Below, piece by piece: positions 34,067 to 43,860 of a stretch of DNA of 64,000 nucleotides. A program made the position numbers and the translations under genes. This DNA is from Pseudorhodoplanes sinuspersici (GTDB taxonomy: Bacteria > Pseudomonadota > Alphaproteobacteria > Rhizobiales > Xanthobacteraceae): assembly GCF_002119765.1 (NCBI RefSeq), contig NZ_CP021112.1:924501-988500 (forward strand), given 5' to 3'. How positions within the stretch are numbered: position 1 is the first letter of the stretch; the number at the start of each line of letters is the position of its first letter. The notes under the pieces are model-generated. The model made no database searches. It was given only the letters and a program-made list of their open reading frames with translations, and was not told the origin of the DNA.

Positions 34067-34902
34067 AGTTCGTCTTCATTGCGAAGCACCGGGGCATCTG
34101 GCCGGTGGCATGGCTGTGCAACGCATTGGGCGTCTCCCGGTCCGGCTTCCATGCTTGGCTGAACCGCTCGTTCAGTGCCCGAGCCCGTAGCGATGAAGTG
34201 ATCGGCGGGCGGATCAAGGCAAGCTTCGTCAATAGCGATCGGACCTACGGAGCGCGACGCGTCTGGCGCGACTTGCTTGCCGACGGTATCGAATGCGGTC
34301 TGCACCGGGTCGAACGACTGATGCAGCAGCAGGCCTTGCGAGCCAGGCCACGACGACGGCGCTTGCCTAAGGATAACGGTGATCGCCAGATTGCAGTTGC
34401 TCCCTCGAACCTGCTGGACCGGCAGTTCGCAGCTGAGCGACCGAACCAGAAATGGGTTGCCGACTTTACCTATATCTGGACGGCCGAGGGATGGTTGTAC
34501 GTCTCTGCCGTGATTGACCTGTTCTCACGGCGCGTCGTCGGCTGGTCAATGAGTGCCGGTATGACGGCTCAGTTGGTCGCGGATGCCCTGCTGATGGCGG
34601 TGTGGCGTCGTGGCAAACCGGACGCGCTCATGCATCACTCTGATCGCGGCAGCCAATATGCCAGTGACCAGTTCCAGCGCTTGATGGCCGACAGTGGCAT
34701 CACCTGCAGCATGAGCCGATCCGGCAACGTCTGGGACAATGCCGCTATGGAAAGCTTCTTCTCATCGCTGAAAACCGAGCGCATCGCTCGAAGGAACTAC
34801 CGCACCCGGAACGAGGCCAAGGCAGATGTGTTCGATTACATCGAGCGGTTCTATAACACGACCAGGCGTCCCTCGACGATCGGATACGTCAGCCCCGTTT
34901 GA
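34063..34902 (+). CDS. IS3-family transposase OrfB (DDE integrase)
   Basis: A 279-residue DDE transposase. The catalytic acidic residues lie in 'KWVADFTYIW', 'HHSDRGSQY' and 'NAAMESFFSSLKTE'. The start overlaps the OrfA stop (ATGA). The frame is -1 relative to OrfA, consistent with programmed frameshifting. No internal stop or frameshift is seen, so the element may still be active. Confidence 0.93.
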   Translation: MKFVFIAKHRGIWPVAWLCNALGVSRSGFHAWLNRSFSARARSDEVIGGRIKASFVNSDRTYGARRVWRDLLADGIECGLHRVERLMQQQALRARPRRRRLPKDNGDRQIAVAPSNLLDRQFAAERPNQKWVADFTYIWTAEGWLYVSAVIDLFSRRVVGWSMSAGMTAQLVADALLMAVWRRGKPDALMHHSDRGSQYASDQFQRLMADSGITCSMSRSGNVWDNAAMESFFSSLKTERIARRNYRTRNEAKADVFDYIERFYNTTRRPSTIGYVSPV

Positions 34903-34955
34903 GTTCGAGCGGAAGCTGGGATTAGCTTAACTGGCTGTCCACTGAACCGGCAGCA

Positions 34956-35351
34956 GGCCACGCCTTCAACCCTTGCTAGCAAGAATATTTGGCGCTGGAT
35001 TGGCGACACACCAGCGAGCACTTCAGCAACAATTCTAAGCTCTTGCCTCGACAACAGCACACGTTCCGCATCCGGCGTTTCGTCGACAACAAGGTCCAAA
35101 AGTGACGGATCTTCGTAGCGGATCAGCTGCTCGCGCTTATTGTGGTTGATAGCGAGGTTGGTAGCGGCACGAAAGAGGTAGCTTTTTCGGTCTGCTACCG
35201 TCGCACTCAAGTTCGAGCTCAGAAGCTTAAGGAAGAGGTCTTGAACAAGGTCAGCCGCAGTATCCGGCGAAGATACTCGACGCTGCAAAAAGCGGGTCAC
35301 GTCTTTCCTATGAAGCCGAAATAGTTCTTGGACGTCCCACATAGCACTCAC
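34956..35351 (-). pseudogene. ECF sigma factor (FecI-type), C-terminus lost to an IS
   Basis: About 130 residues of an ECF sigma factor remain. The sigma-2 region is clear ('RLHRKDVTRFLQRRV', 'TAADLVQDLFLKLL', 'SYLFRAATNLAINHNKRE'), and sigma-4 begins ('LAGVSPIQRQIFLLARVEG') and then runs into the terminal repeat of the IS3 element at 34955. The helix-turn-helix of sigma-4 is gone and is not found on the other side of the IS, so the product cannot recognise -35 boxes. It is a third FecI-type factor beside the two complete ones in this region. The start is GTG 35351 or ATG 35342. Confidence 0.85.
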
Positions 35352-35806: not shown

Positions 35807-36676
35807 TGTCCGTCGTCAGGTAATTCGAGACTGATTAAGCGTTTCTCGAAGGGCTCATCTGGGGTTAGAGTTTAGGCGGCCTGCAGTCTGTGCTGCAAGC
35901 GGCGGTTCGCAACGGTTTCACGCTTGATGCGCTGACGCTCGGCCAGGATTTTCTCGGCCCGGTCGGGGTAAACGTCGGCAGGCGTGAGGTTGTCGATGCT
36001 CTCATGGTAGCGGCGGTGATTATAGTGTTCGACAAACGCGCCGACCTGACGTTCGAGGTCGCCCGGTAGATAGTAGTTTTCGAGCAAGATGCGGTTCTTC
36101 AAGGTCTGATGCCAGCGTTCGATCTTGCCCTGGGTCTGGGGATGATACGGCGTTCCGCGCACATGCTGCATGTCTTTGCCCTTGAGCCACGTGGCCAGAT
36201 CGTCCGCCACGTAACTTGATCCGTTGTCGCTCAGAAGCCGTGGCCGCTGCTTTACGTTGATATGGTCCAGGCCTGAGGCCGCAAGCGCCTGGTCAAGCGT
36301 GGCCGCGACGTCTGATGCACACATCGCGGGACCAAGCCTCCAGGCCACGATGTAACGCGAGAAGTCATCGAGTACGGCGCTTGCCGGCTTCCAGGAATTT
36401 CTTGGACCAGCCATAATAGATCGAGGCAGCAATGCCCTCGCGGCGGCAGAGCTCGGAGATGTTTTCCTCGCCGCGCAGTCCTTCCAGCACGATGCGGATC
36501 TTCTCTTCCGCCGAATACTGCCGTCGCGTCTGACGACGGATGGCCTTCAGTACTTGTTCTGCCGGCGCTTTGCCCGGCCCGGATTCCTGCTTCATCTTCG
36601 CTCCTTACGGCTATGAACCAGAAATCCTCCCTTCGGAAAGTCCCTCAATTTGTCTCAAGGGCGCTGACGGCAAACA
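35807..36676 (-). mobile_element. Internally deleted IS3-family element
   Basis: An 870-bp derivative of the element at 42425-43934. The ends correspond: the orfB-side end reads inward TGTCCGTCGTCAG (from 35807), and the orfA-side end reads inward TGTTTGCCGTCAG (from 36676). The middle is missing, joining the end of orfA's first half directly to the catalytic half of orfB. It is not autonomous, but the ends remain and could be mobilised in trans. No target duplication was seen. Confidence 0.8.
35872..36595 (-). pseudogene. Transposase remnant: OrfA N-terminus joined to OrfB C-terminus
   Basis: The first 70 or so residues are OrfA ('QTRRQYSAEEKIRIVLEGLRG', 'ISELCRREGIAASIYYGWSKKFLEAGKR'). At about 36,375 the sequence jumps, in another frame, to the OrfB core 'VLDDFSRYIVAWRLG' and on to 'HNHRRYHESIDNLTPADVY'. 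The first DDE aspartate (TDFTY) is lost, while 'LLSDNGSSYV' and 'GKIERWHQTLK' remain. It cannot encode an active transposase. Confidence 0.85.
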
Positions 36677-36692
36677 CATCAACCCTACGGCC

Positions 36693-39600
36693 TCAGAAGC
36701 GATAATGCAGCCCGACCTTGAGCATCGGAATATCGACCTTGCTGATGATCCTGCGGCCGTTAGCCTCGGTCGAGGTGACCGGAAAGCCATAGCCATTGGC
36801 AATCATGACGCCAGCTTTGGCATTCGGGAATTTGAATTCAGTCTCATCGAAGCGAGCGAGCTGGTATTCGCCGGTCAGCGACCAGGACTCGTTGAGCGCG
36901 AATTCGGCACCACCGCCAATCACGTAACCCGTCCGCGTCAAAGATGCACTCTCGGTGAACGCGGCGATGGAAGAATCAACGGCAGTGCAGCACCCAGGAT
37001 TTGTCTTACTGCCGACATATTGCGTGCGCTCCTCGTTCTGGCGCATGAAGGCGACGCCACCGGTCGCATAGACCATCAGGCGGTCATTGAATGCGTAGCC
37101 CAGGCGGCCCCGCACGGTCGCCATCCAGTCGATTTCCGTTTTGCGAACGGCCTCGAATGCACGCTGTCTGAACATATTGTTGCTATCAGGAAGGGAGGAA
37201 CCTTCGTTGGCGAAAGTCACCTGCGAGCCGGAAATCTCCGACTTGGCGATGTCGGCGGCAATACCAGCGACAATGCGGTTTGCGAACTGATAATCGTAAC
37301 CGATCTGAGCGCCGAACGAGAACGCCTCGATTTTCTGGTTGGGCGCCTCACCTGCCGAATAGCGCATGGTCGAACCGTCCAGCGTCCTAGCCGCTCCGGT
37401 GAGCTTCGCGAAATTTTGGGCTGCATTCACGCCGGCGTGGAAGCCGGTCCAGCTCTTGCCGCTTGCGGAAGGCGAGAACAGACCTGCGAGCGAGGCAAAG
37501 GACGCTGGCTCGCTTCCACCGAATTTGCCGGTGACGCCGAGGCGCGCGGTGCGTCCGGGGCCTGGCTGCTGCACGAGGCTCAGCGGATCGACATAATAAC
37601 GATCACCCAGATTTTCAATCGTCGCCCACAAAGTGATGTCCTTCGACAGCTTGTATTCGGAGAATACATCGACCAGCCAATAGGGATTCCAGTCAATCGG
37701 AGCGATGATCGCAGATGCACCATACTGGACCGCGCCATGGCCGATGGCGCGCGGGCCGATATAGCTCACCCGGCCGCCGACCGTCAGATCATCGTTCAGC
37801 AGCTTCTGCGAGGCGGTCAGCGTGGCGGAATATTCGGGCGGAATCTGGTTGGTCGCGTAGTCACCCGAGAGGGTTGAATCCGAGCAGGTGTTGGCTGTCG
37901 GACAGAATTCGACTTTCAGATACTTGTTCGCCGCCAGCTCCGCGGTGAAGCCATTGTGTTCGTACCTCGCCGAGAGCTCCAGTCCTTCGAAACGCGCGCG
38001 GTCGATATTTTGTACCTGCAGACCGGTCCATGTGTATGTGTAGCCGTATATAGGATGAACTGTAGTCCCGCTGACCCCGACGCGGGCGACATAGTCCTTT
38101 ACGTCCCAATTGAAGTATCCGAACTTCATCATGGCTTTATCGTTTGCCGCAAAAACATTATCCTTGATGAGGTTGACACCCGCTTCCCAATTATTGGAAC
38201 GCTCGGGGCCGATATCGGGATTGGGGATCAGCGTGTAAGCGGCGACCGATTCAAACAGCGTCGGCATGCGCAAGGCGCTGGAATAACTGACGTAGAATTG
38301 CGTGCCTTTCACCGGCTCGACAACGATGCCTGCAGAGGGGCTATATCCATCGCTCTTGCGCGAGGGATCGGGATTACGATTCAGCTCGTTGGTGATCGTG
38401 CTGCGGTCCATCGACGAATATTGCGAGTAGCGAAGACCACCCTTGAGGGTCAGCCACTCCACGGGCGAGTAAGCTATTTTTCCAAAATAGCCGGCTTCCT
38501 CTCGAGAGCCATTCCGGGTCGGAATGCCCAAATTCAATGCGTCGGTGAACGGCGTCGGCTTGGTGTCCTCGTTCACATAGGAGATGCCATATTCGAGATC
38601 GAGCGAACCGAACTTGTTCAGCGAGACGTGCGATTTGTTGCTGACGTCGCCGCCCCACATCCTGCTATCATTGCCGGGAAGATAGCCGATGGACAGTCCG
38701 AAATCTTCCGGCTTCACATTCGTCACGCTGGCGCGGGGCGGCGTGCGCATGTTGAGCTTGGTGGTCCAGAAATTCGCCTTGAGATCAATCAGGTCATTAT
38801 CGTCCGGCTTCCACCTGTACCGCACCGTTCCGGTATCAACCTTTGTTGTATTTTCCTGCCATTGTTGCACGGACTGGGCGAGCGGACTTCCGAACAACGA
38901 CGCCAGCATATCGCCCGACGTGCTGCGATAGCCTGTATATCCGAACTGGAGGCTTTGCCCGTTATCGCCACGGACCGTGGCTTTGGCCAGATATGACTCG
39001 GTTTGCAGCTGAGTGTTGAGAACCTGCTCGCCAGCGCGGTAGCTCGAGAGGCCACCGTTTTGATAGACATGCGCATAGGAGATCGGACTTGGCGGATAGT
39101 AACAAAAGCCGCTGGAATAACAGAGCGGCTGCGGTCCGGTATCGATCACCTTCGCGCCCGGACCATTCTTGCCCGCGAAGTAATTCCCCTGCTTGCGGAA
39201 AGCATATCCCCAGAGCAGGTCAAACTTGTCTTCTTTCAACGCTGCGACGGTGCTGAAAGAACCGCTGGTGGGCGTCAGAAAACCTGGCCGATCGAGACCG
39301 GACGCCTGTGCGGTCGGGACTGGGTAAGGCTGCGGGTCGCTGACATAAGGCTTCGGCCATGTATAGCCGCCGCGATCGCCCGGCACCGGTGTTGCCGTAT
39401 TGGTCCCAAAACCACTCTTGACCCAAACACCCCACTTTTCGCCGGGCTTCACCACATCGTCGGCCCCCAGCGTGCGCATCGCCACCGTTCCGGCGATGCC
39501 GCGCGAACTTGCATCCGATCCTTTGCGGATATCGGCACCGGCCAGCAAATCGGGATCGACAAAGGTGCGGTTCGAAATGCCCTGATAGCCTTGATAGACT

Positions 39601-40247
39601 TGCAGGCCATTCTCGGCGCCGTCGATCGTGACGGCCACACGCCCCATGCCCTGCATGCCGCGGATGTTGACATCGATTGACCCTGCGCCATTACGGGCCT
39701 CACCCGACATCACGCCGGGCGTTCCGCGAAAGATATCGGCCGGGCTCGAACCACGAAAACGATCGATGGTTTCCTGCGAAATATGCGACACGGGACCCGG
39801 CGTTGAATAAGGCGCCTCGACGGCAGCGCTCGTTCCACCACCCGATACATTGATCGTGTCGAGCTGGATCGCCCCATCGACGCTCGCGTCTTGTGACGAT
39901 GGTCCGCTGATTGTCACAGTGCTCGCGCTCGTGAAGCGATAGCTGAGACCCGTACCAGCCAGCAGTTGCGATAGGCCCTGCTCGCGCGAATACGGACCTG
40001 ACAAGCCGGGGCTATTGCGACCGGCGGTCAGATCCGACGGGAAAAGAAGGCGCAGGCCAGCCTGATCGGCGAACGCATTCAACGCGCCGCCCAGCGCCTG
40101 CGCGCGGATATTGAAAGCGATGGCCTGACTGCCCGCCTGCGCCGCCGCCGTACGCATCGACGCGTCTACTATGGCGACATTACTTAGAAGGAGCGCGATC
40201 GCGCTTCCGCGTAGAAATCGTGCTCGTAATCCAGCTTGACCAGTCAT
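36693..40247 (-). CDS. TonB-dependent receptor fused to a C-terminal Omp25-like beta-barrel
   Basis: A 1184-residue outer-membrane protein. A signal peptide (about 1-38) is followed by an STN signalling domain (about 43-115, 'FNIRAQALGGALNAFADQAGLRLLF'-like region), a plug (about 150-260, 'DVNIRGMQGMGRVAVTIDG') and a 22-strand-type barrel. 'LRMPTLFE' and 'NPDIGPERSNNWEAG' resemble the FRAP/NPNL region of haem receptors. The barrel ends near residue 909 with 'LGVTGKF', a normal receptor terminus. A second, complete small barrel then follows ('SWTGFHAGVNAAQNF', 'GAQIGYDYQFANRIVAGI', ending 'LKVGLHYRF'), as in Omp25/Omp31 porin-like proteins. Third gene of a fecI-fecR-receptor operon. Confidence 0.88.
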   Translation of the reverse strand: MTGQAGLRARFLRGSAIALLLSNVAIVDASMRTAAAQAGSQAIAFNIRAQALGGALNAFADQAGLRLLFPSDLTAGRNSPGLSGPYSREQGLSQLLAGTGLSYRFTSASTVTISGPSSQDASVDGAIQLDTINVSGGGTSAAVEAPYSTPGPVSHISQETIDRFRGSSPADIFRGTPGVMSGEARNGAGSIDVNIRGMQGMGRVAVTIDGAENGLQVYQGYQGISNRTFVDPDLLAGADIRKGSDASSRGIAGTVAMRTLGADDVVKPGEKWGVWVKSGFGTNTATPVPGDRGGYTWPKPYVSDPQPYPVPTAQASGLDRPGFLTPTSGSFSTVAALKEDKFDLLWGYAFRKQGNYFAGKNGPGAKVIDTGPQPLCYSSGFCYYPPSPISYAHVYQNGGLSSYRAGEQVLNTQLQTESYLAKATVRGDNGQSLQFGYTGYRSTSGDMLASLFGSPLAQSVQQWQENTTKVDTGTVRYRWKPDDNDLIDLKANFWTTKLNMRTPPRASVTNVKPEDFGLSIGYLPGNDSRMWGGDVSNKSHVSLNKFGSLDLEYGISYVNEDTKPTPFTDALNLGIPTRNGSREEAGYFGKIAYSPVEWLTLKGGLRYSQYSSMDRSTITNELNRNPDPSRKSDGYSPSAGIVVEPVKGTQFYVSYSSALRMPTLFESVAAYTLIPNPDIGPERSNNWEAGVNLIKDNVFAANDKAMMKFGYFNWDVKDYVARVGVSGTTVHPIYGYTYTWTGLQVQNIDRARFEGLELSARYEHNGFTAELAANKYLKVEFCPTANTCSDSTLSGDYATNQIPPEYSATLTASQKLLNDDLTVGGRVSYIGPRAIGHGAVQYGASAIIAPIDWNPYWLVDVFSEYKLSKDITLWATIENLGDRYYVDPLSLVQQPGPGRTARLGVTGKFGGSEPASFASLAGLFSPSASGKSWTGFHAGVNAAQNFAKLTGAARTLDGSTMRYSAGEAPNQKIEAFSFGAQIGYDYQFANRIVAGIAADIAKSEISGSQVTFANEGSSLPDSNNMFRQRAFEAVRKTEIDWMATVRGRLGYAFNDRLMVYATGGVAFMRQNEERTQYVGSKTNPGCCTAVDSSIAAFTESASLTRTGYVIGGGAEFALNESWSLTGEYQLARFDETEFKFPNAKAGVMIANGYGFPVTSTEANGRRIISKVDIPMLKVGLHYRF

Positions 40248-40379
40248 AACGCCCCAATGCCCATCATTGAAGGACATCATCGGCGGCAGGTTGTGCTCTT
40301 GTTCGATGTCCTTGGCTCTAGGACGAAACGGCGAGCGCAAACTTGCACCTCGCAGCAGCCATTATCTTTTGTGTCTGTT

Positions 40380-41333
40380 CTAAAGAATGACCGTGACAAG
40401 AGGCAGACGAACCACGCGGACCGGCAATGTCTCTGCGATCGTCTGCAACACGCTTTCCGGATCGGACAGATCGAAGACGCCGGTGACCTCCAGCGATCGC
40501 AAAGTCTGACCGACAATGACGACCTGCCCTCTGCGATACCGCTCGATATCGGTAATGACCTCGGCAAGCGGCTTGCGATTGACGATCAGCTTGCCCCTGC
40601 GCCAGGCCGTTTCGGCGTCGGCGTCAATCGTTTGCACGGCGGACGGCGCGCTACGCGATGTATATTGGATGCGCTGATTGGCGCTGACCCGAACGGGACT
40701 GCCGCGAGCAAGGTCTGTGGAGGTGGCGACGACGCCTTCCAACACAGTGACCACGACCTCGGCGCGCCGCACATCGACGTCGAACACCGTGCCGATCGCG
40801 CGTGTCTCCCCACTCGCCGCGCTAACGCTGAACGGCCGTGCCGCATCATGAGCGACGGTAAAGGTCGCCTGCCCTTCCAGCAATTTCAGCCTTCGCTCCT
40901 GTTCGCTGAAATTAACGGACAGCGCAGAACTGGCATTCAGCAGCACTGTTGACCCGTCCGGCAGCGGCACGCTGCGCCGCTCGCCGATGCCGGTCGTATA
41001 GTCGGCAAACAGCCGCGGACCGATCATCCCGCTCTGGAACAGCGCGGCGCCGGCAACAATGGCCGAACCGCCCAGCATTGCGCGCCGCGTCAATTTCGCG
41101 CGCTTTTCGCTGCGATGAAGCTGCCTGGCTTTATCGCCCGCCGAGCCGACACCCTGCCAGATGGCCTCGGCCTCGCGCGCGGCCAGCGCGTGCTCGTCGC
41201 TCTGCGCACGCCAGGCGGCAAAGGCCGCGTGATCGGCTGGCGTCGCTGCGCCGGAATGAAGCTTCACGACCCAGTCGATCGCCGCGTCGCTGAGGGCGAG
41301 ATCGGCGTGCTGGGGTCGCTGCTCGGGGGCCAT
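40380..41333 (-). CDS. FecR-family anti-sigma regulator, system 1
   Basis: A 317-residue inner-membrane regulator. The N-terminal cytoplasmic part ('AAIDWVVKLHSGAATPADHAAFAAWRAQ') binds the sigma factor, a membrane segment lies near residue 90-110, and the periplasmic FecR domain follows ('FADYTTGIGERRSVPLPDGSTVLLNASS', then 'RLKLLEGQATFTVAHD'). It relays the receptor state to the FecI-type factor encoded upstream. Gene order fecI (41492-42037), fecR, receptor is the standard one. Confidence 0.9.
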   Translation of the reverse strand: MAPEQRPQHADLALSDAAIDWVVKLHSGAATPADHAAFAAWRAQSDEHALAAREAEAIWQGVGSAGDKARQLHRSEKRAKLTRRAMLGGSAIVAGAALFQSGMIGPRLFADYTTGIGERRSVPLPDGSTVLLNASSALSVNFSEQERRLKLLEGQATFTVAHDAARPFSVSAASGETRAIGTVFDVDVRRAEVVVTVLEGVVATSTDLARGSPVRVSANQRIQYTSRSAPSAVQTIDADAETAWRRGKLIVNRKPLAEVITDIERYRRGQVVIVGQTLRSLEVTGVFDLSDPESVLQTIAETLPVRVVRLPLVTVIL

Positions 41334-41491
41334 TTTTCAACCGGCAAGGGTGTGAGGACGCCACCTCGACGAGGGGCTCGCCAAACTGGATTTACACCAA
41401 GGACGAAATGACGAGACGAAAGTTACACCGGCGCGGGGATAAAAAAGCGTCAGGAAGATGATGGCTTAAATCACAGGACGCGTGCAGGTCG

Positions 41492-42037
41492 TCAGGATGC
41501 GCGGAGGTGATCCCGGCAGTGCCGCAGTGCCTGGGCGAGATAGCGCGCCACCATGCTTTCCGACACGCTCAGCTTGCGGGCAATATCGCGGTGGGGCCAT
41601 CCATCACATCGGCTCATCAGCAGAGCCGATCGCGCCTTGGCCGGCAACTCAGCCAAAGCCTTGACCAGTCCGCGAAGCTGATCGCGGTCGATCGCATAAA
41701 CTTCCGGCGAGGGCGAATGGTCGGCCAGCGAGGCGAGAAGCATGTCGTCGCTGACGCAGCGGGAGGAATGCCGCCGCTCCTTGCGCACAAGATCGATGGC
41801 GATATTGCCGGCGACACGGAGGATGAAGCCCTGGCGGTCACTGATCGCCGCGTTGTTCTCGCTCGCCGCGCCGTCCTGGCTTAGTGTCGCGAGGCGCAGC
41901 CAGGTTTCCTGCAATGCCTCTTCGGCCAGATCGTGCGACCCCACGCGTTTGACGAGGAAACCCCGCAGCGCTTTCCATTGCTGGATATACACCGACAGCA
42001 AGTCGTTATCGAGCTTGGCCGCTTTAAGCGTACTCAT
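41492..42037 (-). CDS. FecI-type ECF sigma factor, system 1
   Basis: A 181-residue ECF sigma factor. Sigma-2 has 'LRGFLVKRVGSHDLAEEALQETWLRL' and 'GFILRVAGNIAIDLVRKERR'. Sigma-4 has 'LAELPAKARSALLMSRCDGWPHRDIARKLSVSESMVARYL', with its helix-turn-helix. It should transcribe the receptor operon when the receptor signals through FecR. I take the ATG at 42037; a GTG two codons upstream is also possible. Confidence 0.92.
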   Translation of the reverse strand: MSTLKAAKLDNDLLSVYIQQWKALRGFLVKRVGSHDLAEEALQETWLRLATLSQDGAASENNAAISDRQGFILRVAGNIAIDLVRKERRHSSRCVSDDMLLASLADHSPSPEVYAIDRDQLRGLVKALAELPAKARSALLMSRCDGWPHRDIARKLSVSESMVARYLAQALRHCRDHLRAS

Positions 42038-42147
42038 GGTCACTACGAGGCGCGAGGTCAGAATGTTCTACGAGGCTAACCCGGTCTTAGAAAGACGAAC
42101 AAACCTTTGCAACATCAATGATTTGGACGGCTTCTAATTCGAGAAAA

Positions 42148-42419: not shown

Positions 42420-42509
42420 GATTATGTCCGGCATCAGCTCTTGTAGGACAGATTTAACGGCTTGAGGAACGGAGGATTTCTGGCTCATCGTACCCCTTGA
42501 GGAGTGGAG

Positions 42510-42884
42510 ATGAGACAGAAATCCGAGACACGGGCGATATCGTCCGAGCAGGTTGTGAAGGACATTCGCCGGGCGACCCGCAAGCACTATTCTGCAGAAG
42601 AAAAGATTCGCATCGTTCTGGACGGTCTTCGCGGCGAGCATTCGATCGCGGAGCTCTGCCGTCGTGAAGGGATCGCCGAGAGCCTTTATTACAGCTGGTC
42701 GAAGGAATTCCTGGAAGCCGGCAAGCGGCGGCTGGCTGGCGACACCGCGCGGGCAGCGACCAACGGCGAGGTCAAGGATCTGCGGCGACAGGCGCAGGAG
42801 CTGAAAGAGGTTGTCGCCGAGCAGGCGCTCGAACTGCGACTGCTCAAAAAAAGCATGATCGCGGATGGGGGCGACGAGGCATGA
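42510..42884 (+). CDS. IS3-family transposase OrfA
   Basis: A 124-residue OrfA with the helix-turn-helix 'YSAEEKIRIVLDGLRGEHSIAELCRREGIAESLYY' and a long C-terminal coiled segment ('EVKDLRRQAQELKEVVAEQALELRLLKKS'). A run of seven A (in 'CTCAAAAAAAGC') near its end may serve frameshifting. The ATG at 42510 follows GAGGAG; a GTG two codons upstream is an alternative. Its stop overlaps the orfB start (ATGA). Confidence 0.9.
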   Translation: MRQKSETRAISSEQVVKDIRRATRKHYSAEEKIRIVLDGLRGEHSIAELCRREGIAESLYYSWSKEFLEAGKRRLAGDTARAATNGEVKDLRRQAQELKEVVAEQALELRLLKKSMIADGGDEA

Positions 42885-43860
42885 GATATCCCGCATCGGA
42901 GAAGCTCGAGATCATCCGCCTGGTCGAGCAGTCGCATCTGCCGGTTCGCCGCACGCTGAACAAGCTCGGCATTCTGCCATCACGATTTTATCGATGGTAC
43001 GATCGCTATCAGACCGGCGGACCTGAAGCTCTGGAGGATCAATCGTCAAAGCCGGGGCGTGTCTGGAACAAGATCCCAGATGCGATCCGTGATGATCTCG
43101 TGCAACTGGCGCTGGATGAGCCGGATCTGTCACCGCGGGAATTGGCCACCCGGTTCACCGATACGAAGGGTTATTTTGTGTCGGAATCCTCGGTCTATCG
43201 GCTGCTCAGGCGCATGACCTGATCGCCAGCCCCGCGTTCATCGTGATGAAGGCTGCCGATGAGTTCAAGGACAAGACCACAGCACCGAACCAGCTCTGGC
43301 AGACCGACTTCACCTATCTGAAGGTCATTGGCTGGGGCTGGCTCTATCTGTCGACTGTGCTCGATGACTTCTCACGCTACATCATCGCGCACAAGCTCTG
43401 CACGACAATGAGGGCTGATGACGTCACGGCCACATTGGAATTGGCGCTCACAGCATCGGGATGCAGCCAGGCACGGGTGGCTCACAAACCCCGTCTGCTG
43501 AGCGATAACGGTTCGAGCTATGTCTCTGCCGACTTGGCGCAATGGCTTACAGCTCAGGGCATGGGACACGTTCGCGGCACTCCCCGCCATCCGCAGACCC
43601 AGGGGAAAATCGAACGATGGCATCAGACGCTGAAGAACCGGCTCCTGCTCAAAAATTACTATTTGCCCGGTGATCTTGAAGCCAGCATCGACAGGTTCGT
43701 CGATCATTACAACCATCGCCGCTACCACGAAAGCCTCGGCAATCTAACCCCGGCCGACGTCTACTGCGGACGCGGTCAAACCATCCTGCTGGAACGAGAA
43801 AGGATCAAACGGCAGACCATCCAGACCCGACGCTTGCTGCATCAAGAAAAAGCCGCCTAA
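42881..43860 (+). pseudogene. IS3-family transposase OrfB, frameshifted
   Basis: The first 112 codons ('ASEKLEIIRLVEQSHLPVRRTLNKLG', up to 'SVYRLLR') are in one frame. The rest ('HDLIASPAF', 'LWQTDFTYLK', 'LLSDNGSSYV', 'GKIERWHQTLK', 'HNHRRYHESLGNLTPADVY') is in another. One base appears to be missing near 43,212. All three DDE residues are present in the second part. The element is therefore probably immobile unless the shift is bypassed or is a sequencing error. Confidence 0.82.

Follow-up and report, generated by a model that had tools for sequence, protein, structure and literature searches.

A TonB-dependent transducer of Pseudorhodoplanes sinuspersici with a predicted eight-stranded barrel in the same chain

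Outer-membrane proteins having more than one barrel per chain are a kind already known; in the 2021 survey of Solan and colleagues, combinations with eight-stranded barrels reportedly prevail and are said to have arisen independently in different lineages. Such multibarrel proteins were treated by Solan et al. (2021, PNAS, doi 10.1073/pnas.2104059118), a work cited in PMC11494523 and PMC9603273. The protein described here shares with them the presence of more than one barrel per chain and differs from multibarrel proteins generally in that one of the partners is a TonB-dependent transducer under a FecI/FecR pair; this combination is a variant of that kind. A literature search, covering sources other than the contents of the list of Solan et al., disclosed no receptor-barrel fusion of exactly this make. 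On the receptor side, an STN domain and a FecI-FecR gene pair are also found in the surface-signalling receptors of the FecA/FpvA/PupB type, which, unlike the fused gene, lack a second barrel. Among solved structures, HasR of Serratia marcescens (PDB 3csl) is the nearest in both sequence and fold, and it likewise combines STN, plug and receptor fold with sigma/anti-sigma genes upstream; its gene order, hasI-hasS-hasR, is the same as that of the fused loci (review PMC9249621). HasR, in contrast, has no extra barrel, and its haem histidines, the plug residue His189 and the loop-7 residue His603 (PMC6981324), are not conserved in the fused receptor.

The fused gene lies on the reverse strand of the window, i.e., the whole stretch of 64,000 nucleotides under investigation (Table 1), and no internal stop interrupts its frame from the start codon to the stop at 36693. 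Three codons are candidate starts, TTG 40340, ATG 40280 (M21) and ATG 40247 (M32); the last one, chosen in the original prediction, precedes a sequence resembling a signal peptide, and translation from M32 gives a calculated mass of 127 kDa, that of the mature protein being about 124 kDa. It had been claimed that a receptor ending with LGVTGKF at about 37,521 runs in frame into a second barrel, and the sequence bears this out: after F940 (codon 37521-37523), the usual last residue of the receptor, a stop, an ATG and a signal peptide were sought in the linker DNA (37455-37520) and none is present, suggesting that the small barrel would reach the outer membrane only within the fused chain. The search of each half against protein families assigned STN, Plug and TonB_dep_Rec (Pfam) to the first part, whose barrel is about 22-stranded, and OMP_b-brl (E 2e-14, above cut-off) to the second one, which ends with HYRF. 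The second part alone was modelled by AlphaFold with exactly eight strands (pLDDT 86, pTM 0.84), which speaks against the alternative that it is not a barrel. In the model of the mature full chain (mean pLDDT 66, pTM 0.61) the eight strands follow a poorly defined linker, so that the two barrels are recovered at moderate confidence only and their relative placement is left unfixed. The presence of two complete membrane barrels in one predicted chain, i.e., the multibarrel architecture, is thus confirmed by families, modelled fold and relatives.

Table 1. Features of the fused gene and of its upstream genes (positions of the window).
Feature	Coordinates	Strand	Remarks
Whole fused frame, TonB-dependent receptor plus 8-stranded barrel	36693..40340	(-)	1215 aa; likely start M32 (40247) or M21 (40280)
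Signal peptide, residues 32-65, sole one in the chain	40146..40247	(-)	Read from sequence
STN signalling domain, residues 98-145	39906..40049	(-)	Pfam PF07660 above cut-off
Plug domain, residues 178-281; Tyr252 at HasR His189 position	39498..39809	(-)	Pfam and alignment
HasR-like receptor barrel ending LGVTGKF	37521..39497	(-)	Pfam, NCBIfam, structure model, HasR match
Linker, residues 941-962 (22 residues)	37455..37520	(-)	Low confidence in model
8-stranded OMP_b-brl barrel, residues 963-1215, fused-specific extracellular residues	36696..37454	(-)	PF13505 and AlphaFold
FecR anti-sigma factor	40380..41333	(-)	
FecI-type ECF sigma factor	41492..42043	(-)	

General porins have 16-18 strands and form an open trimeric pore, whereas the small barrel has eight strands, and the nearest folds retrieved by Foldseek are of the OmpA, Ail, OmpX, NspA and OmpW type. 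For these reasons it is not a porin, as it had been labelled, and falls into the OmpA/OmpX/Ail class. No sequence relative of the small barrel was found in the PDB. With the alphaproteobacterial small barrels of PF13505, a family that includes the Omp25/Omp31-type proteins, it shares the eight-stranded fold, the W-T-G-F-Y start, a conserved periplasmic half and the YRF end; the fused form differs from the standalone members in lacking a separate signal peptide and in carrying a distinct conserved outer rim.

As for the receptor, Foldseek grouped the whole-chain model with HasR and other haem/siderophore receptors, and the NCBIfam TonB-hemin score (325.3) is just above the cut-off of 316.85. 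A Tyr occupies the plug position of HasR His189 in 47/47 receptors examined, and the loop-7 segment contains no His in any of the fused proteins. Haem reception by HasR-type coordination was considered and is unsupported, both HasR haem histidines being absent. Since haem iron can be ligated by Tyr, Tyr75 of HasA being an example (PMC6981324), haem is possible as a ligand, though not indicated; the small barrel might possibly be a haem-holding accessory, as had been proposed, attached to a receptor devoid of the two HasR histidines. The HasA profile (PF06438) had no match in the genome, in a search run without a positive control and in which control genomes also gave none.

The same architecture was looked for in relatives, and 28 other frames with both parts were retrieved, one of them in the same genome, which excludes a sequencing error hiding a stop near 37,510. 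The resulting 29 distinct frames occur in Hyphomicrobiales and Ketogulonicigenium: within Xanthobacteraceae they are found in Ancylobacter, Azorhizobium, Xanthobacteraceae 501b and MAGs named Afipia and Xanthobacter; other carriers are Rhodoplanes, Rhodomicrobium and plasmids of Pseudochrobactrum, Shinella and Ketogulonicigenium. Twenty-seven frames are at least 1095 aa long, the two shorter ones being a broken frame (L165) and one near a contig end (L166). In L165 (G443:C1:3827479-3840453) the fused gene is apparently broken by a frameshift into overlapping frames of 602 aa and 700 aa. The second fused gene of the P. sinuspersici genome (C1:1591774-1594983; L006, L171) encodes 1158 aa, 42% identical to the window copy, belongs to the other main receptor clade and has its own FecI-FecR pair. 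At the thresholds used, the fused architecture is rare, being present in about 11 of the 199 genomes sampled from the window's family, in 3/397 of the order sample (own genome, G319 and G190) and, among the 385 of the class sample, in the own genome only; the family sample includes seven further genomes of the window's genus, none of which matched at the threshold. In full-length scores of the C-terminal model, fused proteins reached at least 237 bits and standalone barrels at most 137, with a model that also includes the receptor tail. Frames of 515-725 aa containing two PF13505-like barrels each were also observed (G373:C1:3412986-3414584, G405:C116:34014-35444 and G238:C6:509731-510993); judging from their sequences, they seem to be further multibarrel proteins of this order.

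In every fused locus whose upstream DNA is covered, a FecI-type sigma factor and FecR are located directly upstream on the same strand; the N-terminal STN domain (PF07660) and the adjacent ECF sigma factor and FecR give the fused protein the traits of a surface-signalling transducer. Downstream, the annotated fused loci showed no conserved partner gene. In the window, the fecI-fecR-fused gene cassette is flanked by integrase-core transposase genes at 35872-36432 (-) and 42504-43860 (+), whose proteins are 66% identical, and further repeats exist between these two oppositely oriented flanks; the cassette could be a mobile unit. An ECF sigma factor fragment comprising region 2 only is located at 34851-35351 (-), its 3' end overlapping an IS3-like transposase frame that ends at 34902, as if cut by insertion.

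The analysis of the phylogenetic trees revealed a conflict between the two parts. The receptor tree scatters the fused proteins, requiring about eight changes (about seven without the truncated duplicate row U_L036), whereas in the barrel tree 28/29 fused barrels form one group (SH-aLRT 99), within which the lone "standalone" row (L133) is a contig-edge fragment. The Shinella fused barrel is placed apart from the main group, on a long branch. This protein (L123, Shinella zoogloeoides plasmid p1_Teo12) also lacks the linker and the outer-rim motifs of that group, and its sequence suggests that it is probably an independent receptor-barrel fusion. The conflict fits either an old fusion followed by losses or a barrel moving between receptors. 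In the clade to which the window's receptor belongs, fused and unfused proteins are separated by 12 receptor positions, and the unfused G294 protein has fused-type residues at most of them, a sequence pattern which fits secondary loss or a pre-fusion sister. Barrel remnants were sought downstream of unfused receptors and none was found, so that loss is not demonstrable from remnants.

The window copy itself is chimeric on sequence identity. Beyond about residue 200, its nearest match is the fused protein L154 (76% in the receptor, 73% in the barrel), whereas its STN (residues 51-150) is 40-66% identical to unfused systems vs 26-38% to L154, its FecI 59-60% vs 30%, and its FecR 56-58% vs 34%. 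The G+C content is 0.65 in FecR and 0.63 in FecI vs 0.58 in the fused gene. The FecI-FecR-STN stretch (39906-42043) thus resembles unfused-receptor systems and, relative to L154, looks as if it had been swapped in from one of them.

The small barrel is under purifying selection and about as constrained as the receptor, dN/dS over five fused pairs being 0.09-0.19 for the barrel and 0.08-0.13 for the receptor. Sixteen barrel positions are fused-specific, i.e., conserved in at least 85% of the 28 fused barrels and in at most 30% of the 95 standalone ones. Fifteen of the 16 lie in the extracellular half, their mean height being 0.86 vs 0.19 for the generally conserved positions (p 1e-6), an outward bias that is in part expected because family-divergent positions are mostly located in extracellular loops. 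R1105 and R1196 are present in 28/28 fused barrels, and other fused-specific residues include Q1107, Y1108, E1130, R1136, E998 and E1046. Standalone groups of at least 17 members, with a mean identity of 0.41-0.57, have just 1-5 group-specific positions each, small standalone groups and one group of 14 having more. The number and charge of the fused-specific positions are a stronger point than their outward bias.

Sequence and fold prediction show the pair of barrels with their linker, the operon and a conserved outer rim. These may be parts of a TonB-dependent transducer resembling HasR and belonging to a FecI-FecR system, in which the tethered eight-stranded barrel serves as an accessory docking face, a reading to which we give about an even chance. 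As to ligand class, docking role, insertion order and signalling, we infer the following course. The protein would be exported as one chain, and BAM would insert its two barrels next to each other, the topology being simple since both strand numbers are even and the short linker remains in the periplasm. An iron carrier (haem-type or other) would be bound by the receptor outside, while the small barrel, with its charged outer rim, would dock the ligand, its carrier protein or loops of the receptor itself near the mouth; uptake driven by TonB would then move plug and STN, and the latter would signal via FecR to FecI, inducing the operon. The existence of close receptors without the barrel implies that the transport mechanism does not depend on it. 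A more specific proposal, that the rim captures the ligand or its carrier and hands it over to the receptor, within a one-chain uptake-and-signalling device whose barrel module has moved between receptor lineages, is put forward tentatively, being the less probable side of the question.

The small barrel might instead be an assembly or stability aid, providing a strong C-terminal BAM signal or an LPS anchor without binding any ligand. In the original prediction an assembly partner was suggested and a C-terminal Phe was described in both halves; the latter is true of the window copy, whereas across the family the inner terminal residue is Phe in 21/28 fused proteins, with Leu or Ile in the other seven, vs 20/20 unfused ones (p 0.03, relatedness uncorrected). 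The final Phe ends every fused frame (YRF/YKF/YHF), so that strict conservation is confined to the last signal, the inner one looking relaxed. This agrees with an assembly role, as does the reported stabilisation of the outer membrane via LPS by PF13505 members, e.g., OprH (PMC9581022). However, unfused receptors of 52-58% identity evidently assemble without the barrel, their ends being normal, and the fused-specific conservation is on the outer face rather than at the BAM signal; the idea is weakened by this and is retained as a rather unlikely rival, next in rank to the docking role. It is also conceivable that export is followed by cleavage within the linker, the fusion fixing only stoichiometry and shared regulation of separate barrels. 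The linker is indeed variable in length, Pro/Gly-rich and modelled with low confidence, but its start, GG(S/D/N)(E/Q)P (GGSEP in the window copy), is kept in most fused proteins, and a split version with a neighbouring separate barrel gene, sought in 17 loci of unfused relatives, was found in none of them, making cleavage quite improbable. A second pore or ligand channel, also suggested at the outset, is very improbable: the small part is a membrane barrel, but one of only eight strands with OmpA, Ail, OmpX and NspA as nearest folds. Barrels of this size are generally without an open channel, and the modelled one is probably not a pore. Most close receptor relatives being unfused, one might finally think of a recent, functionless read-through or of a hidden stop; this is rejected as next to impossible, because 29 frames across many genera, with clade-specific conserved residues, carry a barrel constrained as reported above.

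In view of these data, the two-barrel transducer appears, on sequence and modelled fold, to be a real, conserved and rarely noticed working unit; annotated records say only "TonB-dependent receptor", which leaves the second barrel invisible in current annotation. The fused gene lends itself naturally to testing the way in which BAM folds a single chain into two barrels that differ greatly in size, and it bears on whether an internal barrel needs a terminal signal of its own, the inner Phe being relaxed in about a quarter of the fused proteins. The fused-specific residues represent named targets for a possible hand-over of ligand from the small barrel to the TonB receptor, a role that is hard to assign when barrel and receptor are separate proteins.
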